64,000 nucleotides of DNA from Nonomuraea guangzhouensis (lineage in GTDB: Bacteria > Actinomycetota > Actinomycetes > Streptosporangiales > Streptosporangiaceae): the NCBI RefSeq assembly GCF_019396345.1, contig NZ_JAHKRM010000019.1, positions 186,001 through 250,000 on the forward strand, given 5' to 3'. Positions 35,355-49,316 of the stretch are shown piece after piece. A program made the position numbers and the translations under genes. Each line of letters starts with the position of its first letter. The stretch's first letter is position 1. The notes under the pieces were generated by a model. The model was not told where the DNA came from and did not search any database. It saw nothing but the letters and a program-made list of their open reading frames with translations.

Positions 35355-36794
35355 TCACCACCGCGCCACATTGACCTTCCCGTCGGACACCAGCCGCACC
35401 CGCCGGCCGACCAGTTCCCTGGACATCGCGTCCGCCAGGAGTTCCTCCTCCAGCACGTGAGCATGGGCCCGGCCCCCGCCGGGCAGGTCGACGACGAGGA
35501 TGCCCTTCTCCGCGACACCGTCGCGGCCATGCGCCACCGTGTAGCCGGCCACCGTGGCGGGGCCGTCGTACAGGGCGACGATCTCCACCGGATCGGCGGT
35601 GAAGACGGGCGTCGCATCGCCCAGCGTGCCGCCCGGGTCCGTGGACCAGATCGCGTACGTGTGCTTGGTCAGGTGCATGCCGACGCCCGTCACCAGCCCA
35701 TGGCCCTGCTGGGCGCGCAGCAGCCCCGCCATGGTGGCCGTCGAGTGCAGGACGTAGTCGCTGGAGGGACCGCCCGCGTACGGCAGGCCGCCGGTGACCG
35801 TCAGGCCGCGCCGGTCGAGCGGGTCCAGCTTGATCGCGTCGCACGCCTGCCGCAGCGCGATCGCGAAGCAGCTGTAGAGGTCGAGCGCGTGAATGTCGTC
35901 CAGGCCCAGCCCGGCCCGCGCGAACGCGGCCTCGGCGGTGCGCCCGATGGCCTGCGAGGCGCCGAGCGCGGGCCGGGCCGCCACCTCCCACGTGTCCTCG
36001 CCGTAGGCCCATCCGCGCAGGTAGACCCGCTGGTCGTCCGGTACGCCGAGCCGGTCGGCGAGTCCGGCCGACACCAGGACGACGGCCGCGGCCTGGTCGA
36101 CCTCCCCCACGGCCACGGTGTCGCGGGTGTACGGCCAGCCGATGAAGCGGTGGCCGGTGGCCAGTTCCTCCGGGGTGCGGGGGGTACGCCGCCAGGCGTG
36201 TGGGTTCGCGGCGGCGACCTCGGTCATCGGCGCCATCATCCGCCCCCGGTCCACCATTTCCTCATTTATCGACATACCGAGGGACGCGCGGCGGGCGGTC
36301 TCCATGATCGCGTAGGTGTGGAGCGGCAGGAACAGGTCGTGGGCCAGCTCCGCCGGGTGCGGCGGTCGGTCCCAGCCGTAGGGCGGCTTGGGGTCGGCCG
36401 GATGGCTCCATGCCACATGCTCGCCCGCCTGCCGGTAGGCCCGGCGCGTGGCCAGCGCCTCGGCGCCGGCGATCAGGGCCGAGTCGAGCTCCCCCGCCGC
36501 GATCCTGCCCGCGGCCTCACCGATGAGCAGCTGCGGTGCCGTACCGCTGACCCTGGAGTACGCCCGGTGCCGGGGCGCGGCGCCCAGGCGGTCGGCGAGC
36601 CGGCCGACCGGGGAGTCGTACTGCCAGGAGTCGGTGTAGACGAGCTGGATCGAGTCGAGCCGCTCGACCGGCAGCCGCGCCTCGCGAGCCGCCTCGCGCG
36701 CGACGTGCTCCCACAGGTCGAGTGGTTCCGGGCCCGGCTGCTCGCGAACGGTGCGCTGGGCCGTGCCGATGAGACAGGGGGTGCGTGGATCCAT
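35355..36794 (-). CDS. Thiolase-superfamily protein (acetyl-CoA acetyltransferase/lipid-transfer type) with OB-like tail
   Basis: 479 residues. The N-terminal half has G-T-A-Q-R-T near 10-15 and A-L-I-A-G-A-E-A-L near 105; the second half has the thiolase-like A-L-D-L-Y-S-C-F-A-I-A near 310 and G-G-L-P-Y-A-G-G-P-S-S-D-Y near 340, then a roughly 85-residue C-terminal domain resembling the DUF35/OB extension of this group. The usual N-terminal nucleophilic Cys of biosynthetic thiolases is not evident, so it may act in steroid side-chain or acyl-CoA breakdown like the SCP-x family. Start 36794 preferred over 36803. Confidence 0.75.
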   Translation of the reverse strand: MDPRTPCLIGTAQRTVREQPGPEPLDLWEHVAREAAREARLPVERLDSIQLVYTDSWQYDSPVGRLADRLGAAPRHRAYSRVSGTAPQLLIGEAAGRIAAGELDSALIAGAEALATRRAYRQAGEHVAWSHPADPKPPYGWDRPPHPAELAHDLFLPLHTYAIMETARRASLGMSINEEMVDRGRMMAPMTEVAAANPHAWRRTPRTPEELATGHRFIGWPYTRDTVAVGEVDQAAAVVLVSAGLADRLGVPDDQRVYLRGWAYGEDTWEVAARPALGASQAIGRTAEAAFARAGLGLDDIHALDLYSCFAIALRQACDAIKLDPLDRRGLTVTGGLPYAGGPSSDYVLHSTATMAGLLRAQQGHGLVTGVGMHLTKHTYAIWSTDPGGTLGDATPVFTADPVEIVALYDGPATVAGYTVAHGRDGVAEKGILVVDLPGGGRAHAHVLEEELLADAMSRELVGRRVRLVSDGKVNVARW

Positions 36795-36803
36795 GCCACC
36801 CAT

Positions 36804-37078: not shown

Positions 37079-38078
37079 ATGTATTCCCGAGCAAGGCGCA
37101 TCACGATCCCGCTCGCCGGTCTGCCGGCCATCGGCCTGGCCGCGGGGATGTTCGGCGGCACCGCCGCCGGCGCGACCCCACCCTCCGACGTCGTGTCCAA
37201 GAACGCGACCACTCCCGCGGAGCAGGCGGTCCGGTTCTGGACGCCCGACCGCGTCAAGCTGGCGGCCGACCACGACACGAACCTCGACGCCCGGTCCAAC
37301 GGCGTCAAGGGCGGCAACTCCACCCCCGACGGCCCGCCCGGATCCATCCCCCCGATCGGCGGGGAGAAGACCAAGCCCGTCAAGAGCAAGCAGGTCAACC
37401 TACCCAACACGGTCGGACGCGTGTTCTTCACACTGCCAGGATCGAACCCGGCGAAACCGGCGAGCTGGCGGCACTGCTCGGCCAGTTCCGTACAGGGCAA
37501 ATACCGCAAACCTGGTGGCCACCTCGGCCCACTGCGTCTACGACACCAGGAAGGACGCCTTCTACGACAACTGGATCTTCATCCCGTCGTACTGGGACGG
37601 CGACAACGCCTGGGAGGGCAAGGCGCCCTACGGCATCTACGCCGCCAAGACGTTCAACGCGCATGACGACTTCGTGGTGAAGGAGGACCACGACTACGAC
37701 TACGCGTTCGTCAACGTCTACAACGGCATCAAGGTCACGTGGGAGAAGGTCAACGGCAAGTGGCAGTGGACGCGGAAGAACGACGGCCGCCGAAGTGGTG
37801 CTACGGCAGGACGGCTCCGATGCCCGCCGCGCCGGAAGTACAACCTGCAGGAGCACATCGGCCTCAAGTGCGCCTTCACCGCCGGCGCCAGCGGTGGACC
37901 GCTCCTGTACAGCTACAGGAGCTCGACCCGCACCGGATACCTGATCGGCGTCAACAGCGTCGCGTGGGACACCGACGGCAACGACCGCTACGACCACGTC
38001 TCGTCGCCGTACTTCAACACGGACACCTACAAGGTCTACAAGGCCGCCGCGAACCGGTGGACCGGCAACATGCCGTAA
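37079..38078 (+). pseudogene. Trypsin-fold serine protease homologue P1, broken by frameshifts and a deletion
   Basis: Starts with a good ribosome-binding site (GAGGAG) and signal peptide (A-A-G-A-T end) and matches its paralogues up to S-S-V-Q-G-K-Y-R. One extra A in the AAA at 37508-37510 shifts the frame; the catalytic-His segment V-A-T-S-A-H-C and Asp segment D-Y-D-Y-A-F-V continue in another frame. About 50 codons (D-V-G-R-L-G-D to F-G-Y-P region of the paralogues) are missing near 37785, W-C-Y-G-R-T is in yet another frame (37787-37833), and G-A-S-G-G-P-L-L with the catalytic Ser returns to the earlier frame. At least three frame changes, so unlikely to make active enzyme; assembly error at the first site cannot be ruled out but not for all. 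Confidence 0.8.
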
Positions 38079-38083
38079 GCAGG

Positions 38084-38111
38084 GGCCCCGGCCGCTCCTC
38101 CGGCCGGGGCC
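38084..38111 (+). terminator. Terminator after P1
   Basis: GGCCCCGGCCG (38084-38094), 6-base loop, CGGCCGGGGCC (38101-38111); perfect 11-bp stem, weak T tail. Confidence 0.75.
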
Positions 38112-38385
38112 TTCTCGCACTCGTGCACTGATCAAGAAAGGCACTCGGGAAAAGCCGGGTGGACATCGAAGTCGCGTCATGTACTATGCCTGTGACGTGC
38201 GGAAACGACCTTCACATGAGATCGGGGCCGCAATCCGGATGGCGCCCTTGACGCACTCCTTATGAGGTACAAGTCACGCTTGATCTGATAACGAATCGCC
38301 ATCCGTGCTGCAATACAGTGAGTGATCTGGAAAAATCCATCGTTACACCCCCAGAACGACTAACCCCCAAAGGCAAGGCATTTCC
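38112..38385. other. Upstream region of protease P2
   Basis: 274 bp. Contains TGCGGAAACGA (38198-38208), identical to an 11-mer before P5 at a similar distance from the start, and CTGATAACG near 38284, shared with the P4 upstream region. No terminator-like or palindromic operator was seen. Confidence 0.45.
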
Positions 38386-39462
38386 ATGATCCCCCGGGTC
38401 CGGCACCTGGTAGCGGCTGCCCTCAGCGCGCTGCTGCTGCTGCCTGCCCTCGTGGGGACCGCCTCGGCCTCGGCCAACAGCCGCGTCTACTCGGTCACGC
38501 TGGCCAAGACGGTGGCGGACATGAAGAAGGTCGCCGCCTACTGGCAGCCCGACCGGCTCAAGAAGGCCGACAACTACAGCCCCGCCACGCCGGCCTCGCA
38601 GTCCTCGCCCACCGCCACGGCGGCGGCCGGGGCGAGTCAGATCGTCACGCTGAAGCGCCCGCAGGGCCCGCTGAGCGTCGCACCTGTCCTCCCGCGCAAC
38701 AGCACGGCCGCCAAGACCATGGGCAAGGTCTTCTTCCGCTTCGGCGACAAGGAGTACTGGTGCTCGGCCAGCGCGGTCGCGGCCAAGAACCGCAGCGTGG
38801 TGGCCACCGCCGGGCACTGCGCGTACGACTCGCGCCAGGCCAGGCCCGCCGATTACTGGATCTTCGTCCCCAACCCGGGTCCCGGCGGGGAGACGCCTGA
38901 CGGCATCTACGTCGGCGCCGCGATCAGCATGCACGAGGACTGGCCGGGCAAGGGCGACTACGACTTCGACTACGCCTTCGTCACCGTGCACCGCGGCTTC
39001 AAGTGGGTGGAGAAGAACGGCCAGCTCGCGATGCAGGACGTCGGCCGCCTGCAGGACAACGTCGGCGGGCAGGGCCTGACGATCGGCAAGGGACTGGCCA
39101 TCTCGATCTCCGCCTTCGGCTACCCGGCGGGCCCACAGCCCGACGGCACCCGGCCGTTCGACGGCAAGACGCTGAAGGCGTGCTCGGGCACCACGAGACG
39201 CACCGTGGCCCCCAGTCTCGACCTGCAGTACGGCGTGCAGCTCCAGCCGTGCGAGTTCAGCGCCGGCGCCAGCGGCGGCCCCTGGCTGATCAACTACCAG
39301 CCCGTCCAGAAGGTCGGATACCTCAACGGGATCAACAGTCTGACCTGGAACAGAGACGCCAAGGGCGGCTACGACGCGGTGTCCTCGCCCACCTTCAACA
39401 CCACGACCGGCGACGTCTACCGACGCGCCGCAGCGCTCACAACACCGCAAAATGTGACGTAA
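38386..39462 (+). CDS. Secreted trypsin-fold serine protease P2 with complete catalytic triad
   Basis: 358 residues. Signal peptide (hydrophobic about 8-27, A-S-A end), a pro-like N-terminal region of about 80 residues, then a chymotrypsin-fold domain: W-C-S-A-S near 124, catalytic His in V-A-T-A-G-H-C, Asp in D-F-D-Y-A-F-V, and Ser in S-A-G-A-S-G-G-P-W. It is the only member of the six-gene array that keeps all three triad residues in an intact frame. Specificity cannot be read. Likely extracellular; possibly the active enzyme whose relatives downstream are inactive. Confidence 0.9.
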   Translation: MIPRVRHLVAAALSALLLLPALVGTASASANSRVYSVTLAKTVADMKKVAAYWQPDRLKKADNYSPATPASQSSPTATAAAGASQIVTLKRPQGPLSVAPVLPRNSTAAKTMGKVFFRFGDKEYWCSASAVAAKNRSVVATAGHCAYDSRQARPADYWIFVPNPGPGGETPDGIYVGAAISMHEDWPGKGDYDFDYAFVTVHRGFKWVEKNGQLAMQDVGRLQDNVGGQGLTIGKGLAISISAFGYPAGPQPDGTRPFDGKTLKACSGTTRRTVAPSLDLQYGVQLQPCEFSAGASGGPWLINYQPVQKVGYLNGINSLTWNRDAKGGYDAVSSPTFNTTTGDVYRRAAALTTPQNVT

Positions 39463-39468
39463 GTTACA
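39453..39468. promoter_or_regulatory. CRP-like site before P3 (one mismatch)
   Basis: TGTGACGTAAGTTACA fits TGTGA-N6-TCACA except C to T in the second half. It overlaps the stop codon of P2 and lies about 183 bp before the P3 start. Confidence 0.45.
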
Positions 39469-39614
39469 CGTACCGTATCGCCACCCCGAGTGATCAGCCG
39501 GTTTCAGATCTCGGGATGGTCACGGGCATGATCGTCGCGCTTGACCGCGCCAACAGGTAATTCACAGGACCAGAGTCAGACCGATAGGTTCCCGCCTGTC
39601 CGTTTGCTGTATCT

Positions 39615-39633
39615 GGGGCGCACGAGGCGCCCC
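39615..39633 (+). other. Leader hairpin of P3
   Basis: GGGGCGC-ACGAG-GCGCCCC, a perfect 7-bp stem that ends about 17 bases before the TTG start. Position matches the leader hairpins of P4 and P5, although the sequence differs. Confidence 0.55.
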
Positions 39634-39650
39634 GCGTCTGGAGTTTTACC

Positions 39651-40817
39651 TTGAAGCGCATCCTTCTCCCGGCCGGTGGCGCCGTTCTGGCGACCGGCCT
39701 CCTGGCCGCCGGCCTGGCAGGCACCGCTCAGGCACAGGGCGACGTCGCCACCGACCCCATGGCCCGTACGACACAGCAGGCCTCCTCGGTCGCGTCCTTC
39801 TGGGCCGCGTCCAACTTCGCCGCCCTCCGCTCCGCCACCGCCTACACCTGGGACGCCAAAGAGGTCAGGAAGGTCGTCTCGAAGGGCGGCTACAGCCCTG
39901 ACGGCAATCCGGGAAGCGCCACTCCCATCGGGGAGGAGAAGAAGGCCCCGGGCAAGGTTCAGAACGTGAACATGCCCAAAACCCTCGGCAAGGTCTTCTT
40001 CGTCGACGGCCAGGGCAAGTTCCGCTACTGCTCGGCCACGTCCATCCAGTCGAACTACCGCAACCTGGTCGCCACCGCCGGCCACTGCGTCTACGACACC
40101 GACAGCAACAAGGACCTGCTGAACAACTGGGTCTTCGTGCCCGCCTACTACGAAGGCAAGGCGCCGTTCGGCATCTTCGTGGGCAAGCAGGCCTTCACCC
40201 ACTACGACTTCGACACCTACGAGGACTACGACCGCGACTACGCGTTCGTGACCGTGTACAACGGCATCTCCTTCAACGGTGTGAAGCAGGTGGACCGCAA
40301 GGACTACGACCGCTTCGTCGGTCCGAAGCGGAACTGGGGCGGGCGCTACTACATCCTGCTGTCCAAGGACGCCGGCCGGCTCGGTGACGTCGTCGGCGGC
40401 CAGGGCGTGGCCTGGAACCAGCCCACCGGCAAGCCCGTCCGCGCCTTCGGCTACCCCGCGGGCCCGCACCCCGACGGCAACAAGCCCTACAGCGGCGTGA
40501 CGCCCAAGTGGTGCTACAACAAGACCACCGCCAAGGCCGTGGGCGCACCGTGGCTCAAGATCGAAGAGCACATCGGCCTCAAGTGCGCCGTAACGCCCGG
40601 CTTCGACGGCGGCCCCTGGCTGTCCAACTACAGCAACGGCAAGCGTCTGGGCTACGTCAACGGCGTGACCAGCACGTTCGCCGACCAGGACGGCAACGAC
40701 CGCATCGACTACATCACCTCGCCGTACTTCGACGGTGAGACGGCCGCGGTGTACAACTCGGCCAAGAACGTGTGGTCCGGCAAGATCGTCGGTCCGAACG
40801 GCGAGCTCTACAAGTAA
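39651..40817 (+). CDS. Secreted trypsin-fold pseudoprotease P3 (Ser replaced by Asp)
   Basis: 388 residues from a TTG start with GGAG seven bases upstream. Signal peptide K-R-I-L-L-P-A-G-G then a Leu/Ala core ending A-Q-A. Keeps W/Y-C-S-A-T-S, catalytic His (V-A-T-A-G-H-C) and Asp (D-R-D-Y-A-F-V) but the nucleophile motif is G-F-D-G-G-P-W: Ser is replaced by Asp. A short insert between the Asp strand and D-A-G-R-L-G-D (about 35 residues) precedes the last barrel. Probably a non-enzymatic binding or inhibitory protein. Confidence 0.88.
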   Translation: MKRILLPAGGAVLATGLLAAGLAGTAQAQGDVATDPMARTTQQASSVASFWAASNFAALRSATAYTWDAKEVRKVVSKGGYSPDGNPGSATPIGEEKKAPGKVQNVNMPKTLGKVFFVDGQGKFRYCSATSIQSNYRNLVATAGHCVYDTDSNKDLLNNWVFVPAYYEGKAPFGIFVGKQAFTHYDFDTYEDYDRDYAFVTVYNGISFNGVKQVDRKDYDRFVGPKRNWGGRYYILLSKDAGRLGDVVGGQGVAWNQPTGKPVRAFGYPAGPHPDGNKPYSGVTPKWCYNKTTAKAVGAPWLKIEEHIGLKCAVTPGFDGGPWLSNYSNGKRLGYVNGVTSTFADQDGNDRIDYITSPYFDGETAAVYNSAKNVWSGKIVGPNGELYK

Positions 40818-40830
40818 CACTCGTCACCCC

Positions 40831-40867
40831 AAAAGGGGCCCAGCCGGGTTCGGCTGGGCCCCTTTTT
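40831..40867 (+). terminator. Intrinsic terminator after P3
   Basis: AAAAGGGGCCCAGCC pairs with GGCTGGGCCCCTTTTT around GGGTTC; the stem is followed by a run of five T, a textbook intrinsic terminator. Confidence 0.95.
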
Positions 40868-40934
40868 CGTGCTTTTCCAAGATCATTACGGCGGATTCGG
40901 GAGTATTAGACGGAGCTCGCGCCAATCTGGTTCC

Positions 40935-40950
40935 TGTGATCTGAGTCACA
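40935..40950. promoter_or_regulatory. Perfect CRP-like site before P4
   Basis: TGTGATCTGAGTCACA matches TGTGA-N6-TCACA exactly, 260 bp before the P4 start. The remaining region to 41136 has CTGATAACG and CTGCGGAGA motifs shared loosely with P1, P2 and P5 upstream regions. Confidence 0.7.
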
Positions 40951-41136
40951 TTGGCGCCGCCACGAAGCGTGTCGCACCCCTTACGACCCTTCCGCCATGC
41001 CCCCTTCATACCCAGCGAAAACGTGGCAATTCGATCACCCTCCGCTAAGATCTCTGACTGATAACGGAAAGGTCACGACGGTAAGGGTGGCTTCCAGATG
41101 GGGCAGAACGGCTTTTACCTGCGGAGATCACCACGC

Positions 41137-41210
41137 TATGTTCCTTGCTATCCCTTTACTGACGCATGGGACGCATGTTGTGTCCCACGACAGAGCAAGG
41201 AGCAGTTCCC
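41137..41210 (+). promoter_or_regulatory. Conserved structured leader of P4
   Basis: A block starting TATGTTCCTTGCTATCCC continues through TTTACTGACGCATGGG and is nearly identical (37 of 39 positions over its first part) to the P5 leader at 43082. TGGGAC (41167-41172) pairs with GTCCCA (41182-41187). AAGGAG lies nine bases before the TTG start. The first part may be promoter and the second part mRNA leader. Confidence 0.6.
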
Positions 41211-42719
41211 TTGAAGCGCATCCTCATCCCCGCCGGTGGCGCCATCCTGGCTACCGGTCTTCTGGCCGCCGGCCTCGCCGGTACGGCCACGGCCGCCAGT
41301 GACGTAGCCTCCGACCCGATGGCGAAGAGCGCCGCTGACGCGAAGGCCATCGCGGACTTCTGGTCGGCCACCAACAACGCCGCCCTCAAGGCGGCGAAGG
41401 AGTCCAACGTCTGGGACGCCGGCGACGTCACCAAGCTGCAGAGCAAGGGTGGCTACAGCGCGGACAGCAAGCCCGGATCCTCCGTGCCGATCGGCCAGGA
41501 GAAGAAGACCACCGTCAAGGTTCAGAACGTGAACCTGCCGAAGACCATCGGCAAGGTGTTCTTCGTCAACAGCAAGGGCGAGAAGAAGTGGTGCTCGGCC
41601 ACTTCGGTCCAGTCGAAGTACCGCAACCTGGTCGCCACGGCCGGTCACTGCGTCTACGACACCGCGACCAACTCGGACGTCATGTCCAAGTGGGTCTTCG
41701 TGCCCGGCTACTACCAGGGCAAGACGCCGTTCGGGATCTACGTGGGTAAGCAGGCCTTCACCCACTACGACTTCGACGTGTACGAGGACTACGACCGCGA
41801 CTACGCGTTCGTGACCGTGTACAACGGCATCCAGCTCGGTGGCGGTACCGCCAAGCAGGTCTCCAAGGCCGAGTTCGACAAGTACCAGGGCATCAAGGAT
41901 GCCAAGGACGTGCCGATCACCCAGGCCGAGTACCAGAAGTGCAAGGACCTCAACGGCGGCGAGACGCCTGACTGCTGGGCCAAGACGGACAGCAAGATCG
42001 ACGTCGTGGGCCCGGACTACGCCGGCGCCATCAAGGCCCTGACCGAGGTCACCAAGGAGCAGTACGACGCTGCTGCCACTGGCAAGGCCAATGGCACCAA
42101 GGCGCCCGCCGCCACCAAGACGGAGAACGTCACCAAGTCCGAGTACGAGGCCTACAAGGGCCCGGGCTACCGGAAGATTGACGAAAAGGGCAACTTCACG
42201 ATCACCCACTACTTCGTCAAGAACTGGGTGAAGAAGACAGACATCAAGGGCTACTACAAGACTGTCTTCTACATCGTCGAAGGCGCTGCCAAGGACGTCG
42301 GTCGCCTCGGTGACGTCGTCGGCGGCCAGGGCGTGTCCTGGAACCAGCCCACGGGCAAGTACGTCCGCGTGTTCGGCTACCCGGCCGCCCCGCACCCCGA
42401 CGGCCACAAGAACTACACGGGCATCACGCCCAAGTGGTGCTACGGCAAGACCAGCAAGAAGGTCGTCGGCTCGGCTGCCAAGAAGATCGAAGAGCACGTC
42501 GCGCTCAAGTGCGCGATGACCGAGGGCGCCGACGGTGGTCCTTGGCTGCTCAACTACAGCAACAGCAAGCGTCTCGGCTACGTGAACGGTGTCACCAGCA
42601 CCTTCAACGACCAGGACGGCAACAAGCGTGTCGACTACATCTCCTCGCCGTACTTCGACGGTGAGACCGCTGCGGTGTACAAGTCCGCGGCGAACGTGTG
42701 GTCCGGCAAGATCCTCTAA
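41211..42719 (+). CDS. Secreted trypsin-fold pseudoprotease P4 with insert domain (Ser replaced by Asp)
   Basis: 502 residues, TTG start with AAGGAG nine bases upstream; the frame extends upstream only into the conserved leader. Signal peptide K-R-I-L-I-P-A-G-G ending T-A-T-A-A. His (V-A-T-A-G-H-C) and Asp (D-R-D-Y-A-F-V) kept; nucleophile motif is G-A-D-G-G-P-W. Between the Asp strand and D-V-G-R-L-G-D is an insert of about 150 residues with K-C-K-D-L-N-G-G-E-T-P-D-C-W (a likely disulfide loop) and repeats of an E-Y/F-x(2)-Y-x-G type, shared with P5 and P6. Confidence 0.9.
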   Translation: MKRILIPAGGAILATGLLAAGLAGTATAASDVASDPMAKSAADAKAIADFWSATNNAALKAAKESNVWDAGDVTKLQSKGGYSADSKPGSSVPIGQEKKTTVKVQNVNLPKTIGKVFFVNSKGEKKWCSATSVQSKYRNLVATAGHCVYDTATNSDVMSKWVFVPGYYQGKTPFGIYVGKQAFTHYDFDVYEDYDRDYAFVTVYNGIQLGGGTAKQVSKAEFDKYQGIKDAKDVPITQAEYQKCKDLNGGETPDCWAKTDSKIDVVGPDYAGAIKALTEVTKEQYDAAATGKANGTKAPAATKTENVTKSEYEAYKGPGYRKIDEKGNFTITHYFVKNWVKKTDIKGYYKTVFYIVEGAAKDVGRLGDVVGGQGVSWNQPTGKYVRVFGYPAAPHPDGHKNYTGITPKWCYGKTSKKVVGSAAKKIEEHVALKCAMTEGADGGPWLLNYSNSKRLGYVNGVTSTFNDQDGNKRVDYISSPYFDGETAAVYKSAANVWSGKIL

Positions 42720-42767
42720 GTAACGCACCGCGACCGTTCCAGGACGGTGCGCACAGCGGTAACTCGC

Positions 42768-42794
42768 GAAGGGCCCGGCATCGCCGGGCCCTTC
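42768..42794 (+). terminator. Terminator after P4
   Basis: GAAGGGCCCGGC-ATC-GCCGGGCCCTTC, perfect 12-bp stem, 49 bp after the P4 stop, no long T run. Confidence 0.8.
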
Positions 42795-42861
42795 GGCGTT
42801 CTCGGGCAAATCTGAAGGGCGTTTTGACGCATGGGGCGTCCAGACGGTGCCATCAAGTCGG

Positions 42862-42877
42862 TGTGATCTGCGTCACA
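42862..42877. promoter_or_regulatory. Perfect CRP-like site before P5
   Basis: TGTGATCTGCGTCACA matches TGTGA-N6-TCACA exactly, 276 bp before the P5 start, about the same distance as the site before P4. The gap also contains TGCGGAAACGA (42950-42960), shared with the P2 upstream region. Confidence 0.7.
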
Positions 42878-43081
42878 TCAGGCGAACGGCCGCCGAGGGG
42901 GCGGCACTCTCGCCACCGCAGCAACACTGACAACTTCCTTATGTTGATCTGCGGAAACGATGTCATCCGGCACTTCCGGCAAGTCATCCTCTATCGCCGT
43001 TTAAACATCACGGAACGATCACGCCCGACTTAGCGCCCTTTTTCCCGTCAAAGCAGCTACCCGAGTTCAAGATCCACACTG

Positions 43082-43152
43082 TATGTTCCTGGCTATCCCT
43101 TTACTGACGCATGGGGCGCAAGAAGCTCCCCACGACAGCGCAAGGAGTTACC
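43082..43152 (+). promoter_or_regulatory. Conserved structured leader of P5
   Basis: Near copy of the P4 leader (TATGTTCCTGGCTATCCC through TTTACTGACGCATGGG). TGGGG (43112-43116) pairs with CCCCA (43128-43132); against P4 the fifth pair changes from A-T to G-C, a compensatory change that supports a real stem. AAGGAG lies five bases before the TTG start. Confidence 0.6.
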
Positions 43153-44658
43153 TTGAAGCGCATCCTCCTCCCCGCCGGTGGCGCCATTCTGGCCACCGGT
43201 CTGCTGGCTGCCGGCCTCGCCGGCACCGCTCAGGCCGCTGGCGACGTCGCGAGCGACCCGCTCGCGAAGACCGCCGCCCAGGCTGCTGAGACGCTGGACT
43301 TCTGGACCAAGTCCAACAACGCGGCCCTCAAGCAGGCTGTGGCCTTCAACCCCGACTCGCTCGAGGTTGAGAAGATCTCCCGTGGTGGCGGCTATAGCGC
43401 CGACACCAAGCCCGGCTCCTCCGTGCCGATCGGCGAGGAGAAGAAGGTCGCCGTCAAGTCCCAGAACGTCAACCTGCCGAGGACCATCGGCAAGGTCTTC
43501 TTCGAGGGCCGCGACGGCAAGCTGTACTACTGCTCGGGCACCTCGGTCCAGTCGCAGTACCGTAACCTGGTGGCCACGGCCGGCCACTGCGTCTACGACA
43601 TCGCCGGCAACGACGAGGTCGTTTCGCGCTGGGTCTTCGTCCCCGGTTACTACCAGGGCAAGACGCCTTACGGCTTGTACGTGGGCAAGCAGGCCTTCAC
43701 CCACTACGACTTCGACGTGTACGAGGACTTCGACCGCGACTACGCGTTCGCCACCGTGTACAACGGCATCGGCGGCACGCTGAACTCGTCGAAGCAGGTC
43801 AACAAGGCTGAGTACGACGCGTACCAGGGTGAGAAGTACACCAAGGACGTGGCGATCAGCCAGGCTGACTACCTGAAGTGCAAGGACCTCAACGGCGGAG
43901 AGACCTCCGACTGCTGGGCCAAGGTCACGAAGATCGAGGACCTGGCTGGCCCTGACCACCCTGACTCCGTCAAGGTGCTCAAGGAAGTCACCAAGGAGCA
44001 GTACGACGCCGCGCCCACGGGCAACGTGAACGGCGGCAAGTCTCCCTGGATCTCCACCGAGCAGGTCACGGAGTCGCAGTACAAGGCGTACACCGGCCCG
44101 GGCTACCGCAAGATCGACGAAAAGGGCAACTTCACCATCACCCACTACCGTCTCCGGTACTGGGTGAAGAAGTCGGCCAAGGTCGAGTACTTCCGCACCG
44201 AGTTCTTCGTTGTCGGTCACGCTGTCAAGGACGTCGGTCGCCTCGGTGACAACGTCGGTGGCCAGGGTGTCGCGTGGAACCAGGCTGCGGGCAAGGTCGT
44301 TCGTACCTTCGGGTACCCCTACGGCCCCAACCCGGACGGTTCCAAGCCCTACACCGGTGTTACGCCGAAGTGGTGCTACGGCAAGACCGCCAGCAAGGTC
44401 GTCAAGATCCCGGCCCGCAAGGTCGAGGAGCAGCAGTCGCTGAAGTGCGCCGTCACCGCCGGTTACGACGGTGGACCGTGGCTGGCGAACTACAGCAACG
44501 CGAAGCGTCTTGGCTACGTCACCGGCGTCACCAGCCTCATCGTGGACGTCGATGGCAACAAGCGCTACGACACGATCACCTCGCCGATCTTCGACGGTGA
44601 GACCGCTGCGATCTACAAGGCCGCTGCGGCCTCGTGGTCCGGCAAGCTCATCCCGTAG
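43153..44658 (+). CDS. Secreted trypsin-fold pseudoprotease P5 with insert domain (Ser replaced by Asp)
   Basis: 501 residues, TTG start with AAGGAG close upstream. Signal peptide K-R-I-L-L-P-A-G-G ending A-Q-A-A. His (V-A-T-A-G-H-C) and Asp (D-R-D-Y-A-F-A) kept; nucleophile motif is G-Y-D-G-G-P-W. Carries the same insert as P4, with K-C-K-D-L-N-G-G-E-T-S-D-C-W. Closest relative of P4, evidently a recent tandem duplicate including part of the leader. Confidence 0.9.
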   Translation: MKRILLPAGGAILATGLLAAGLAGTAQAAGDVASDPLAKTAAQAAETLDFWTKSNNAALKQAVAFNPDSLEVEKISRGGGYSADTKPGSSVPIGEEKKVAVKSQNVNLPRTIGKVFFEGRDGKLYYCSGTSVQSQYRNLVATAGHCVYDIAGNDEVVSRWVFVPGYYQGKTPYGLYVGKQAFTHYDFDVYEDFDRDYAFATVYNGIGGTLNSSKQVNKAEYDAYQGEKYTKDVAISQADYLKCKDLNGGETSDCWAKVTKIEDLAGPDHPDSVKVLKEVTKEQYDAAPTGNVNGGKSPWISTEQVTESQYKAYTGPGYRKIDEKGNFTITHYRLRYWVKKSAKVEYFRTEFFVVGHAVKDVGRLGDNVGGQGVAWNQAAGKVVRTFGYPYGPNPDGSKPYTGVTPKWCYGKTASKVVKIPARKVEEQQSLKCAVTAGYDGGPWLANYSNAKRLGYVTGVTSLIVDVDGNKRYDTITSPIFDGETAAIYKAAAASWSGKLIP

Positions 44659-44705
44659 TTCACTGCGGATCGAACGAAGACTTAGGTCGTCGTTCACCAG
44701 CTTTA

Positions 44706-44744
44706 CCGAAGGGCCCGGCATCCTGCCGGGCCCTTCGGCCTTTT
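44706..44744 (+). terminator. Terminator after P5
   Basis: CCGAAGGGCCCGGCA-TCC-TGCCGGGCCCTTCGG, 15-bp stem followed by CCTTTT, 47 bp after the stop. Confidence 0.88.
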
Positions 44745-44864
44745 CCGGGGTCTGACCTGGGCCTCCAGCATCTTCCGTAACATTCCAGCACAATCTGTTA
44801 CCAGAGTGACCAGAGGGTCGATAGGGTCTTTACACCTCGCTTGTTAACGTTGTGGAGATCTTCA

Positions 44865-46349
44865 GTGAAGCGCCTGCTCGTCCCCCTGACCGCCGCCAGC
44901 CTGAGCGCCGCCGCCCTCACCCTCCCCGCCAACGCCGCCCCCGACTGGGTCCAGGACCCGCTCGCTCCCAAGGCGGCCGAGGCCTATAGCAACGCCTACT
45001 TCTGGCTCGACGCCAACGGTGCCGCGCTCAAGAAGGCCACGCAGTACAACGTCGATGCCAAGGACGTTCAGAAGCTGGTCTCCACCCAGGCCAAGACGCC
45101 CGACGGCAAGCCGGGCTCGGCCTCCCCCACCGGCACGACGCCCCCCGTGGCCAAGTCCACGGCGGTGAACCTGCCCAGGTCCATCGGCAAGGTCTTCTTC
45201 CTCGACAGCGCCGGCAACTACCGCTGGTGCTCGGCGACGTCCGTCCAGTCCAGGAACCGCAACCTGATCGCCACCGCGGGCCACTGCGTCTACGAGCGCG
45301 GCAAGGACGTCTTCGCCAAGTGGGTGTTCGTCCCCGGCTACTACCAGGGCAAGGCGCCGTTCGGCGTGTACGCGGGCGCCTACGCCTTCACCAGCTACGA
45401 CCTCGACACCTACGACGACTACGACGGCGACTTCGCGTTCGTGGCCGTGCACAACGGCTTCGCGCTCCCCAACGACAAGAAGGTGTCGTTCAAGGAGTTC
45501 CAGGCGTGGCGGGGCGACAAGTGGGTCAAGCCGGTTGAGATCAGCCCGGCCGAGTACGCCAAGTGCGTGCTCACCCTCGGCCACTGCTGGTCCGAGGGCG
45601 CCGACACCCCGGCCGACAAGGTGGGTCCCGACTTCCCCGGCGCGGTCCTGGAGAAGGTCGAGGCGAGCGAGAAGGAGTACACGGACGCCAAGACCGGCAA
45701 GGGCAACGGCTTCAAGCTCGGCGAGCCCGAGACCGTGCCCGTCACCCTGCCGGAGTACACCGCCTACAAGGGCCCCGGCAAGAAGACCATCGACAAGTCC
45801 GGCAACTACCTCATCACCCACTACTACACGCAAAAGTGGGTCAAGCCAGGATTGTCGCGCAAGTACTACATGGCCGAGTACGTCATCGGCATCGCCAAGG
45901 ACCTGGGCCGGCTCGGTGACGCCGTCGGCGGCCAGGGCGTCGCCTGGAACCAGCCCATGGGCCAGAACGTCACCGCCTTCGGCTACCCCAGCGCCCCGCA
46001 CCCCGACGGCGACAAGGCCTTCACCGGTGTGACGCCCAAGTGGTGCAGCGGCAAGACCGGTACGAAGACCTACCAGGTCAACACGTTCAAGGTCGAGACG
46101 CACCAGGTGCTGAAGTGCTCGATGACCCCCGGCGCCGACGGCGCCCCCTGGCTGATGAAGTACGACAACAACAAGCGCACCGGCTACGTCAACGGCGTGA
46201 CGAGCATGTTCCACGACCAGGACGGCAACGGCCGGATCGACTTCATCAGCTCCGCCTACTTCGACGGCGAGACCGCTGACGTCTACAACAAGGCCCAGTA
46301 CGCGGCGACCAAGTCGATCGTCGGCCCCAACGGCGAGATGATGCAGTAG
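44865..46349 (+). CDS. Secreted trypsin-fold pseudoprotease P6 with insert domain (Ser replaced by Asp)
   Basis: 494 residues, GTG start with GGAG eight bases upstream. Signal peptide (core about 8-22, N-A-A end). Keeps His (I-A-T-A-G-H-C) and the Asp strand (D-G-D-F-A-F-V); nucleophile motif is G-A-D-G-A-P-W, losing also one Gly of the oxyanion region. The insert is present but more diverged, with Cys spacing C-x6-C (K-C-V-L-T-L-G-H-C-W). Upstream region lacks the CRP-like site and conserved leader of P4/P5, so it may be regulated differently. Confidence 0.88.
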   Translation: MKRLLVPLTAASLSAAALTLPANAAPDWVQDPLAPKAAEAYSNAYFWLDANGAALKKATQYNVDAKDVQKLVSTQAKTPDGKPGSASPTGTTPPVAKSTAVNLPRSIGKVFFLDSAGNYRWCSATSVQSRNRNLIATAGHCVYERGKDVFAKWVFVPGYYQGKAPFGVYAGAYAFTSYDLDTYDDYDGDFAFVAVHNGFALPNDKKVSFKEFQAWRGDKWVKPVEISPAEYAKCVLTLGHCWSEGADTPADKVGPDFPGAVLEKVEASEKEYTDAKTGKGNGFKLGEPETVPVTLPEYTAYKGPGKKTIDKSGNYLITHYYTQKWVKPGLSRKYYMAEYVIGIAKDLGRLGDAVGGQGVAWNQPMGQNVTAFGYPSAPHPDGDKAFTGVTPKWCSGKTGTKTYQVNTFKVETHQVLKCSMTPGADGAPWLMKYDNNKRTGYVNGVTSMFHDQDGNGRIDFISSAYFDGETADVYNKAQYAATKSIVGPNGEMMQ

Positions 46350-46403: not shown

Positions 46404-47750
46404 CTAGACGGCCGACAGCTCGCGCAGCGCCCGCACGGCGGGCTCGCTCTTGTACGGCTCCAGCCTCCTGCGCAGATCGGCCGCGTACGAGCGAGAACGA
46501 GCCGACTGGAGCTCACCCGCCAGCTTGAGCGCGGTCCCCGCCACCTGGCACGCCTCCTCGAGCTCCCCGCACTGCAGCAGCCCGGCCGCCAGGAGCGACA
46601 GGTTGAACATCCGCCCCCGCACGTAGCGACCGTCCATGTCGAGCGAGCGACGCGCCTGCCGGACCACCCGCTCCCCCTCCCCCAGGTCGCGGAAGCAGTG
46701 GGCGAACTTGGCCGACAGATACGCCTCGTCGAAGTAGCTCAGCCAGGCCGGCTCGTCGCCGGGTGCCCGCGTGTCGAAGGCGACCTCGGCGGCGTGCAGC
46801 GCCTTGCCGCAGGAGCGGGCGTCACCGAGGCCCGCGTGGGCGTGCGCCTCCTGCACCAGGCTCGAGCACAGGAGGGTGTGGACGCCCGCTCGGCGGGCCG
46901 ACAGCTGGGCGGCTCTGGCCAGGTCGAGCGCGTGGGCGTGCTGGCCCATGTAGCTGGCCTGGTGCGCCATGCCGGCCAGGATCTCGCCGCCCAGCGCGTG
47001 GTCGTCGGCCCCTCTGGCCAGGCGCAGTGCCTGGATCAGGTAACGCTGGGCCAGGCCGTGCTGCTCCAGGTCGTAGGCCATCCACCCGGCCAGGCGGGTC
47101 AGCTCCGCGGCGGCCGCGGCCAGCTGCCTGCCGGTGGCCTCCCCGTAGGTGCCCTCTTTGAGCAGCGGCGAGACCGCGGTGTCGAGGTATTTGATGACGG
47201 ACGCGCGGACGCGTCCGCTGCCGAACCGGTTGTCGAGCTCACCGAAGGAGCGGGTGACCTCATGGATCGCGGTGATGTCGGCCCGGCCGACCCGGCGCGA
47301 GCCGGCGCCGCCGGGGTGTTCCTCCGGCGGGGACGTCAGCCAGCGGACGGCCCCTACCGAGCCCGCACCTATCGCGAAAGTCGAATCGATCAGGAATCGC
47401 CGTCTCTCCATATCGGCCCGCCACAGCGCCGTCACGGTCGCGACCCCTTCCTTCCACGTGTGCGTGAACTCCTGCCCGAGATCAAGGGGCGAGACGATGG
47501 CCGGCATGCCCACCTCCACAGGGGAGAAAGGCCTGCCGAGCCGTAGCGCGAAAATCTCGGTAAGGAGGCACGGCACAGGGTCCCGAGGCCGCTGACCGCC
47601 TATCCAGCGCAGCACGGAGCTGTGGTCGTACTTCAGGCCGGGGGCGCCGCGCGCGGCTCCCAGGTCGTTGAGGCACCTGGCCAGCCCCTTGTGGGAGAAG
47701 CCCGCCTCCGCGATCAGCTGCTGTAGCAGTCGATTGGGCTCGCGTTCCAT
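46404..47750 (-). CDS. TPR-containing helix-turn-helix-like regulator of the streptomycete developmental type
   Basis: 448 residues. N-terminal HTH-like start E-P-N-R-L-L-Q-Q-L-I-A-E-A-G-F-S-H-K-G-L-A-R (4-25) followed by H-S-S-V-L-R-W-I-G-G near 43-52, then from about 165 a series of TPR-like helices (L-A-A-A-A-A-E-L-T-R-L-A-G-W-M-A-Y-D, Q-R-Y-L-I-Q-A-L-R-L-A, A-L-D-L-A-R-A-A-Q-L). The same opening occurs in many Streptomyces and Streptosporangium regulators thought to affect sporulation or secondary metabolism. A specific role is not established. ATG 47750 follows GAGGAG. Confidence 0.72.
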   Translation of the reverse strand: MEREPNRLLQQLIAEAGFSHKGLARCLNDLGAARGAPGLKYDHSSVLRWIGGQRPRDPVPCLLTEIFALRLGRPFSPVEVGMPAIVSPLDLGQEFTHTWKEGVATVTALWRADMERRRFLIDSTFAIGAGSVGAVRWLTSPPEEHPGGAGSRRVGRADITAIHEVTRSFGELDNRFGSGRVRASVIKYLDTAVSPLLKEGTYGEATGRQLAAAAAELTRLAGWMAYDLEQHGLAQRYLIQALRLARGADDHALGGEILAGMAHQASYMGQHAHALDLARAAQLSARRAGVHTLLCSSLVQEAHAHAGLGDARSCGKALHAAEVAFDTRAPGDEPAWLSYFDEAYLSAKFAHCFRDLGEGERVVRQARRSLDMDGRYVRGRMFNLSLLAAGLLQCGELEEACQVAGTALKLAGELQSARSRSYAADLRRRLEPYKSEPAVRALRELSAV

Positions 47751-47852: not shown

Positions 47853-49055
47853 CTACAGACGGGCGACCCCGTCGGCGCGGGCCTGGGCGGCCACGGCGGC
47901 GGTCACCGCGGGCGCCACGCGCTTGTCGAACGGGCTGGGGATGACGTACTCGGCCGTGATGTCGTCGCCCACCACCCCGGCGAGCGCGGCGGCCGCCGCG
48001 ACCTTCATGTTCTCGGTGATCGTGGTGGCCCGGACGTCGAGCGCGCCGCGGAAGACGCCGGGGAAGGCCAGCACGTTGTTGATCTGGTTGGGGAAGTCGG
48101 AGCGGCCGGTCGCGACCACCCTGGCGTGCTTGGCGGCCACCTCGGGATGCACTTCGGGGGTGGGGTTGGACAGGGCGAACACGATCGAGTCCGCGGCCAT
48201 CGAGGCGATGGCCGCCTCCGGCACGGTCGAGCCGGACAGGCCGAGGAAGACGTCGGCGCCCGCCAGGGCCTCCTCGGTCGAGCCCTTGTGACCCGCCTTG
48301 TTGGTGTCGCGGGCCAGGGCGTCCTTGACCGGGTTGAGCCCTTCCCTGCCGCTGTAGAGCATGCCCTTGGAGTCGGCGACCGCGATGTCACCGATGCCGG
48401 CCTCCAGGAGGATCCTGGTGACCGCGACCCCGGACGCGCCGGCGCCGGCCACCACGGCACGCAGGTCGCCCAGGGAGCGTCCGGTCAGCCGGGCCGCGTT
48501 GGTCAGCGCGGCGAGGGCCACGATGGCGGTGCCGTGCTGGTCGTCGTGGAAGACGGGGATGTCGAGCAGGGCGCGCAGCCGGTCTTCGACCTCGAAGCAG
48601 CGGGGCGCGCTGATGTCCTCGAGGTTGATGCCGCCGAACGAGGGCGCCAGCCGCACGACGGTCTCGACCAGGGCGTCGACGTCGGTGCAGTCGAGGCAGA
48701 TCGGGACGGCGTCGACGCCCCCGAACTCCTTGAACAGCAGCGCCTTGCCCTCCATCACGGGCATGGCCGCGGCAGGGCCGATGTCGCCGAGGCCGAGCAC
48801 GGCCGTGCCGTCGGAGACGACGGCGACCACGTTGGACACCCAGGTGTAGTCATTGACGAGTGACGGCGTGTCGGCGATCGCGGTGCAGACGCGGGCGACC
48901 CCGGGGGTGTAGGCAAGGGAAAGGTCGTCGGCGTTACGGACCGGAATGGTGGATCGGACCTCGAGTTTGCCTCCGCGGTGCAATGCGAAGGCGGGATCGA
49001 GATCGAGGGATTCGACGGAAGTGGGTGTGGTAGTCACAGCGACCCCAGTAGTCAT
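47853..49055 (-). CDS. NAD(P)-dependent malic enzyme
   Basis: 400 residues. Oxidative decarboxylation of malate to pyruvate. Malic-enzyme N-terminal domain with L-A-Y-T-P-G-V-A (about 50-57), [20 protein letters not shown] fitting residues about 95-115, [11 protein letters not shown] and H-D-D-Q-H-G-T-A (about 160-190), and an NAD(P)-binding [11 protein letters not shown]. This is the short bacterial form. ATG 49055 gives the normal family length; an in-frame extension to 49178 or beyond looks non-coding. Confidence 0.9.
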
Positions 49056-49316
49056 CGGACGGATGAGACCTTCGGCAGACGGCGCGAGAGGCCTGGCTTC
49101 GGTAGCCGCCAGGATCCCCTCTTCGATCGTCTCGTGCGAGGGGTTACGGGGGTCACCCGTGGCTCCATAGTGCCACATGGTGAGATCAGGTCCGTCTCGA
49201 GACCGACTCCGTTCTGTTGACGCATTGTTAATTGTCGGATGACGGTCTGCAGCAAAAACCCACTTAAACTGCACAAAAACCAACTTTCCTTACATATCAC
49301 TTGAGGAGGCCCACTC

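Follow-up and report, generated by a model that had tools for sequence, protein, structure and literature searches.

Why does a bacterium keep a row of trypsin-like genes, apparently for secreted proteins, in which the catalytic serine is replaced by aspartate? The question is raised by a window of 64,000 nucleotides (the whole stretch of DNA that was analysed) from Nonomuraea guangzhouensis, contig NZ_JAHKRM010000019.1, which carries a tandem array of trypsin-fold genes designated P1 to P6. The genome is 13.7 Mb in size and its nearest named relatives are Nonomuraea. The most likely answer is that P4, P5 and P6 are dead-protease scaffolds presenting segments for recognition or assembly that are polymorphic and matched as a set. 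The wider reading, in which P3–P6 are secreted, inactive trypsin-fold scaffolds and the inserts of P4–P6 form a functional set under selection for variety, is given a probability of about 0.5.

The array lies entirely on the plus strand and was compared with related arrays at 78 loci (the best 80 of 527 confirmed stretches; loci bear L numbers), in genomes that mostly represent one per species. An initial annotation had counted six genes. P2 to P6 are indeed intact open reading frames (ORFs) of the trypsin fold, while P1 is broken: compared with the intact copy of N. aurantiaca (L054) it has lost the reading frame and 124 bases, with 94% identity where aligned, so that the array counts five working ORFs. 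P1 is likewise non-intact in the nearest relative, L053. The features are:

37079..38078, + strand: P1, broken S195-type protease gene, the ORF divided between two frames
38386..39462, + strand: P2, intact H57-D102-S195 protease with a short linker
39651..40817, + strand: P3, Asp195 protein with a short linker (~40 aa), evolving slowly
41166..42719, + strand: P4, Asp195 protein with a long insert; start codon uncertain
41821..42305 (approximate limits), + strand: P4 polymorphic insert, type B in the N. guangzhouensis strain
43111..44658, + strand: P5, Asp195 protein with a long insert
43761..44245 (approximate limits), + strand: P5 polymorphic insert, type B in the N. guangzhouensis strain
44841..46349, + strand: P6, Asp195 protein with a long insert, motif G-A-D-G-A-P
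45451..45915 (approximate limits), + strand: P6 polymorphic insert, type A in the N. guangzhouensis strain, unlike the P4/P5 type

Likeness to P3 suggests that P4 may start near 41211. The products of P1–P6 are apparently secreted, the signal peptides and the absence of a membrane anchor having been judged by eye. All of P2–P6 share the His57 motif (A-T-A-G-H-C) and the Asp102 motif (D-x-D-x-D-[YF]-A-F), the initial annotation having noticed a shared motif at each of the two residues. At codon 195, P2 reads AGC (Ser) and P3, P4, P5 and P6 read GAC (Asp), at 40605, 42531, 44467 and 46137; the Ser-to-Asp change reported earlier thus stands in all four, in the slot that aligns with the serine of 3wy8 and 3cp7. 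The sequence alignment of P3–P6 places no other serine at the nucleophile position.

The family profile matches these two solved S1 proteases, both of which have Ser in the G-x-S-G-G-P slot. The predicted models of P3 (mean predicted local distance difference test score, pLDDT, 90.6) and P4 (86.0) have a two-barrel, chymotrypsin-like fold, and structural comparison, which had been proposed as a check, returned S1 proteases at Z 28 to 28.7: for P3, 3wy8 (Z 28.3, root mean square deviation 2.1 over 216 aligned residues) and 3cp7 (Z 28.0); for P4, 3wy8 (Z 28.7). To judge from these models, the proteins stop just past the trypsin fold. The bacterial serine proteases concerned, AL20 (3cp7) and Anisep (3wy8), share this fold and a clear sequence kinship with the array. 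P2 has their full His57-Asp102-Ser195 triad, whereas P3–P6 have Asp195 in it; the long insert of P4–P6 and the tandem arrangement also set the array apart from them.

Inserts between the two barrels

The linker between the barrels is short in P2 and P3 and about 150–240 residues long in P4–P6 of Nonomuraea. This insert, of ~160 residues in the window, and its switching in step in several genes go beyond what the initial annotation had noticed. Linkers were extracted by anchoring to the alignment in 385 of 402 rows of the family. Pfam gave no match to three inserts, an insert search of the same genome returned nothing beyond P4, P5 and P6, and structure searches with the whole P4 model had trypsin folds on top.

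Comparison with L053 revealed cassette-like replacement. DNA identity in P4 is 0.985 in front of the insert, 0.710 within it and 0.988 behind it; the corresponding values are 0.946, 0.582 and 0.952 in P5 and 0.972, 0.955 and 0.986 in P6, and the 391-base gap between P4 and P5 is 0.944 identical. The edges of the P4 and P5 inserts are sharp, and inside them synonymous and non-synonymous divergence jump together, as expected from replacement rather than from selection on point mutations alone. Between L067 and L061 the P5 core differs by 1% and the P5 insert by 72%.

Across the family, linkers of at least 60 residues, differing in length by at most 60, were paired between loci. Among 603 Asp195 pairs with a core identity of at least 0.85 the median identity is 0.89 for the core and 0.38 for the insert, and 131 Leu/Ile195 pairs, which have shorter linkers, give 0.87 and 0.38. 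The 26 long-linker pairs with Ser195 are less variable (core 0.92, insert 0.78), one of the exceptions being Streptosporangium L092 and L093 (core 0.98, insert 0.28). The Asp195 genes of these two loci have cores 0.92 and inserts 0.34 identical; the two L092 inserts, of the Ser195 and the Asp195 gene, are 0.33 identical, so that one shared type is not evident. In one genome a tandem pair of Asp195 genes (L087:11479 and L087:14249) has cores 0.99 and inserts 0.60 identical, which looks like a recent duplication followed by a change of insert.

The ratio of non-synonymous to synonymous divergence (dN/dS), another check proposed at the outset, is below 1 over the whole gene in all 25 gene pairs (0.13–0.30 in P3, 0.21–0.87 in P4–P6). 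The highest values occur where the insert types differ or where the best match in a cut-off locus is non-orthologous (P5 and P6 against L055). Some stretches of 40 codons have dN above dS, among them residues 81–120 when P2 is compared with L054 or P6 with L053, as well as parts of the P5 insert against L053; the counts are small, and the two copies of the insert differ in type.

Insert types matched within genomes

The matching of inserts was noticed in 22 genomes. They belong to a first set of 31 Nonomuraea loci, counting the window, that have long-insert genes, and are those in which both P4 and P5 had been assigned. The set was then enlarged by 23 further genomes, from which 3 duplicates and 10 without P5 by a rule of motif and likeness were removed, to reach 32; the 10 include L172 and L188, in which the gene in the place of P5 has Ala at residue 195. 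The insert tree falls into four types, A with 14 genomes, B with 6, C with 11 and D with 1. P4 and P5 bear the same type in all 32 genomes, and P6 agrees in 25 of 28. Within types A and B the inserts of P4, P5 and P6 mostly form a separate sub-clade each. Automatic clustering of the first set likewise grouped the P4 insert of every genome with its P5 insert, and the left-out loci with genes in both places had the same nearest insert type in 14 of 14 cases, among which L175 and L176 fit type C weakly (0.39–0.40) and L191 is the same contig as L074.

Distances between P4 and P5 inserts are strongly correlated (r 0.88), also when the four cores are held constant (partial r 0.89, permutation p 0.0002); either insert correlates with its own flanks at just 0.17–0.21. 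The P4 insert tracks the P6 insert (partial r 0.77, n=28) far better than the P6 core (0.11, p 0.056), the pro-region and core of P3 (-0.03 and 0.01, n=30) or the pro-regions of P4 and P5 (0.03 and 0.01). The labels P4 and P5 change once on the core tree and 11 times on the insert tree; a single clade of all P4 inserts was rejected by the approximately unbiased test (p 3e-7), and inserts of other genera are placed among the Nonomuraea insert groups. On the tree of P4/P5 cores at least 13 type changes are required (shuffled mean 15.0, range 11–18, 200 shuffles).

In two pairs of loci, L077/L173 and L169/L170 (type A in L169, type C in L170), all three inserts are switched while most cores are near-identical. 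Assembly error is unlikely to lie behind this because L169 and L170 both come from single-contig genomes. For the N. guangzhouensis strain a single long import spanning the P4 and P5 inserts was rejected, as the intervening DNA is still 94–99% identical to that of L053, and in general the flanking cores scarcely track insert type. Plain drift in a loose loop leaves the matched types unexplained. Since linked cassettes switch and the DNA between them does not, the matching needs a reason, the simplest being extracellular contact of the inserts with one another or with a single ligand. Dead enzymes are usually recognised by the residue lost and get no further than the label 'function unknown'. 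For this array, comparison yields a testable clue, namely that neighbouring genes swap a middle cassette yet stay matched, with near-identical DNA between the cassettes. Such linked switching over separate genes is strong evidence that the proteins work jointly and that their specificity matters.

What the matched inserts may mean

From these data we infer the following mechanism. P3–P6 would be secreted trypsin folds devoid of peptidase activity which serve as scaffolds, Asp195 standing in the nucleophile's place and the His57-Asp102 pair being retained. P4, P5 and P6 would each display, from the inter-barrel linker, an insert drawn from a small number of old types, and these inserts would act as a set, either by binding one another in a mixed extracellular assembly or by binding the same variable partner. 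A change of one insert in a strain would then select for change in the others. The types would circulate across species by recombination into conserved cores combined with selection for variety, comparable to that at loci of recognition or antagonism. The mismatched P6 of the N. guangzhouensis strain suggests that change is stepwise and meets with some tolerance.

The nearest analogy for the population pattern is TraA of myxobacteria, whose polymorphic types, according to the portions of the paper available, determine recognition and occur over a wide phylogenetic range (PMC6372800). P4–P6 resemble it in having polymorphic types in a variable segment between conserved flanks. TraA is described there as a single cell-surface receptor locus (PMC6372800), whereas the array has three paralogues with matched types and no evident anchor, and its part in recognition is putative. 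More speculatively, the array could be a multi-gene allotype locus. Its three secreted dead proteases would bear polymorphic cassettes that interlock and have to be matched in any one strain, and the locus would decide self among mycelia or neighbours, a few old types being kept across genera. We put this forward tentatively, as a possibility against which the odds run; if true, it would make the array the bacterial equivalent of a locus for histocompatibility or mating type.

Several observations weigh against a functional, matched set under selection for variety. Types A–D were read by eye off the insert tree, the core tree was built from the same genes without independent markers, and the p values of the partial Mantel tests are approximate. 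Matching of P6 is not absolute: its type differs from that of P4/P5 in the N. guangzhouensis strain, L054 and L058, its agreement elsewhere depends on the deep groups of the insert tree, and automatic clustering of the first set placed most P6 inserts in clusters of their own. Linkers of at least 60 residues also occur on 20 of 149 Ser195 proteins, so the insert is not bound to a dead site, and dN exceeds dS in 0 of 25 gene pairs, which leaves positive selection on the inserts unsupported. Finally, P4 and P5 inserts of type C resemble each other more within a genome (0.68) than between genomes (0.50), as expected from gene conversion.

The last point bears on concerted evolution without matched function, by which gene conversion would spread a newly imported insert between neighbouring genes, the linker accepting nearly any sequence. 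The type C surplus accords with it, as do L058 and L073, in each of which P4 and P5 resemble each other more in their inserts than on average in their core parts, and gene conversion seems to take part in type C. There is scarcely any such surplus in type A (0.52 within, 0.48 between genomes) or type B (0.63, 0.62), where the separate sub-clades of P4, P5 and P6 make whole sets look old; P4 and P5 have also kept in step through all the type changes on the core tree. Gene conversion within genomes as the sole cause is therefore unsupported in types A and B and possible in type C, and concerted evolution as a general account is unlikely.

Rather less probable is escape variation, in which the inserts would be the exposed target of a phage, a predator or a rival's protein, and like types would be favoured since the attacker sees all three. 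It is consistent with insert groups common to several genera and with the loose link of type to phylogeny, which fits frequency-dependent selection; no attacker is known, however, and soluble proteins without an evident anchor (as judged by eye) would be unusual receptors.

The initial annotation had suggested that P3–P6 may inhibit or regulate P2, to which shielding of its substrate may be added. Most related arrays do pair altered genes with at least one Ser195 gene. Neither the pro-region nor the core of P2 tracks the P4 insert (partial r 0.09 and 0.05, n=26), and the suggestion appears doubtful; this lack of co-variation counts only against dealings with P2 that depend on insert type and says nothing on other kinds of regulation. 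P3–P6 may alternatively be surface or matrix proteins, as the initial annotation had also suggested. The pro-region of P2 (38386–38720) is itself fast-evolving, with a median identity of 0.46 against 0.72 for the protease core over 26 genomes.

A known case of a dead trypsin fold at work is that of the umbrella toxins, in which, as the available parts of two reports describe, inactive trypsin-like UmbA with variable lectins binds UmbB in the substrate cleft (PMC11062931, PMC13274773). Like Streptomyces UmbA, the array offers an apparently secreted and inactive actinobacterial trypsin fold as a putative binding scaffold beside a highly variable, putative recognition part. Unlike the array, UmbA has C-terminal lectins and the partners UmbB and UmbC in these accounts (PMC11062931, PMC13274773), and in the array the variable part sits inside the protein and changes together in several genes. 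That the array works like UmbA is plausible. That P4–P6 are diverged receptor-binding subunits of an umbrella-toxin particle, the adaptor being dead and the recognition part variable, is very unlikely, even though the same genome has a UmbA-like gene adjoining an ALF-repeat UmbC-like gene on contig C117. The nucleophile has been lost in the same general fold in both, yet P3 has no significant similarity to this UmbA-like protein (best E 2.6). Pfam scans found no lectin, C-terminal or other, in P2–P6 or in the three inserts, and the 7 ALF matches listed for the genome (150 of 345 candidates scored) are all on C117, none on the array contig C39, so no linked UmbC was found. Defining features of an umbrella-toxin system, the lectin and the linked UmbC, were thus not found with the array in these searches. 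The locus on C117 (L201:3286-9919) is separate from the array; its trypsin fold reads Ser within the His57 motif and Ala within that of Ser195, and its neighbour is an ALF-repeat protein of 1418 aa, the end of which matches a DddA-like deaminase family in Pfam.

Inactive serine protease homologues, in the part of the source available, are members of protease families that have lost triad residues (PMC2605481); the array differs in being an old clade which keeps the rest of the triad, a conserved neighbourhood and swapped inserts. The secreted Chp/Pat-1 S1 proteins of Clavibacter were considered as closer relatives by kind and proved no closer; one of them is called unlikely to be a pseudoprotease in the available portion of that report (PMC11290698). 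Among open-licence papers on Asp-bearing trypsin-fold pseudoproteases or on such Nonomuraea arrays none was recognised as describing this array, which does not prove that none exists.

Residue 195, the remaining triad and the neighbourhood

A family tree was built from 387 of the 402 ORFs (15 left out). At residue 195 its members have Asp (150), Leu or Ile (70) and Ser (150), the remainder having Ala, Asn, Gly or Thr. The triads of the 150 Asp195 rows are His-Asp-Asp (HDD) in 146, HND in 2, RDD in 1 and LDD in 1, so that both H57 and D102 are kept in 146 of 150, as against 31 of the 70 Leu/Ile195 rows. One of the two retrieval patterns includes His57, which biases the P3-like seed genes towards it; neighbours pulled in along with the seeds are unbiased.

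P3–P6 fall in a clade of 156 tips (support 94) with 147 Asp, 6 Asn, 1 Gly, 1 Ser and 1 Thr. It spans Nonomuraea, Thermoactinospora, Streptosporangium, Planobispora, Planomonospora, Herbidospora, Sinosporangium and others; two Sinosporangium HND rows and one Microtetraspora row lie outside it. The same change was thus found in relatives, in several genera and more often than by chance, and the earlier view of P3–P6 as maintained proteins that have lost their nucleophile is upheld. The Asp195 change is old and has been retained. Aspartate at the nucleophile site is also known from human protein Z.

The 70 Leu/Ile rows lie in a clade of 98 tips, with 24 Ser195 among the rest, from Microbispora, Microtetraspora, Herbidospora, Acrocarpospora and Planotetraspora. 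Over a tree length of 13.51 it accounts for 7 changes at H57 and 8 at D102, against 4 and 0 in the Asp clade over 21.96 (pooled p 0.0003; H57 alone p 0.08; D102 alone p 0.0004), and a Ser clade of 95 has no change at either site. The rest of the triad is thus constrained with Asp195 and less so with Leu/Ile195, and the array forms a natural experiment on the death of an enzyme, one lineage having kept His and Asp and the other losing both again and again. Probably His57 and Asp102 are kept for a structural reason, as a buried charge network with Asp195. That Asp195 is a new catalytic residue, in an Asp-His-Asp site, is scarcely credible: Ser and Asp nucleophiles do replace each other in alpha/beta hydrolases, and H57 and D102 are far better conserved in the Asp than in the Leu/Ile lineage, but the Asn, Gly, Thr and Ser found at this site within the clade indicate that Asp195 is not strictly required.

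Four Herbidospora arrays (L097, L126, L127 and L129) hold several Leu195 proteins, some of them also without His57 and Asp102 (S-N-L), together with one Ser195 and one Asp195 gene. A stretch of the form D-x-D-x-N-x-R-x-D, at residues 345–353 of P3 (window 40683–40709) and with equivalents in P4–P6, has each named residue 96–100% conserved in the Asp195 clade and looks like a candidate calcium-binding loop; P6 matches the EF-hand weakly (E 0.08), under the cut-off.

The surroundings of the array are conserved: the NsdA-family regulator and the malic enzyme have relatives there in genera from Nonomuraea to Microbispora. The flanking genes are given below with the number of loci, among the 78, that hold a relative, some loci stopping short of the flank:

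35355..36803, - strand: thiolase-like protein, left flank, synteny marker only; 32/78 loci
46404..47750, - strand: NsdA-family TPR-like regulator (NF053720, 452.8 bits against a cut-off of 75); 44/78 loci
47853..49283, - strand: malic enzyme (Pfam), right flank, synteny marker only; 48/78 loci

In Streptomyces, NsdA represses sporulation and antibiotic production, and this neighbour makes a developmental role of the array worth a look. In a first set, searches with P3 gave a match in all 36 genomes of the genus and in none of 23 others (E 1e-20). At the level of the family 151 of 341 genomes had one (E 1e-15), and at that of the class 18 of 394 (E 1e-18), 16 of the 18 belonging to the same family.

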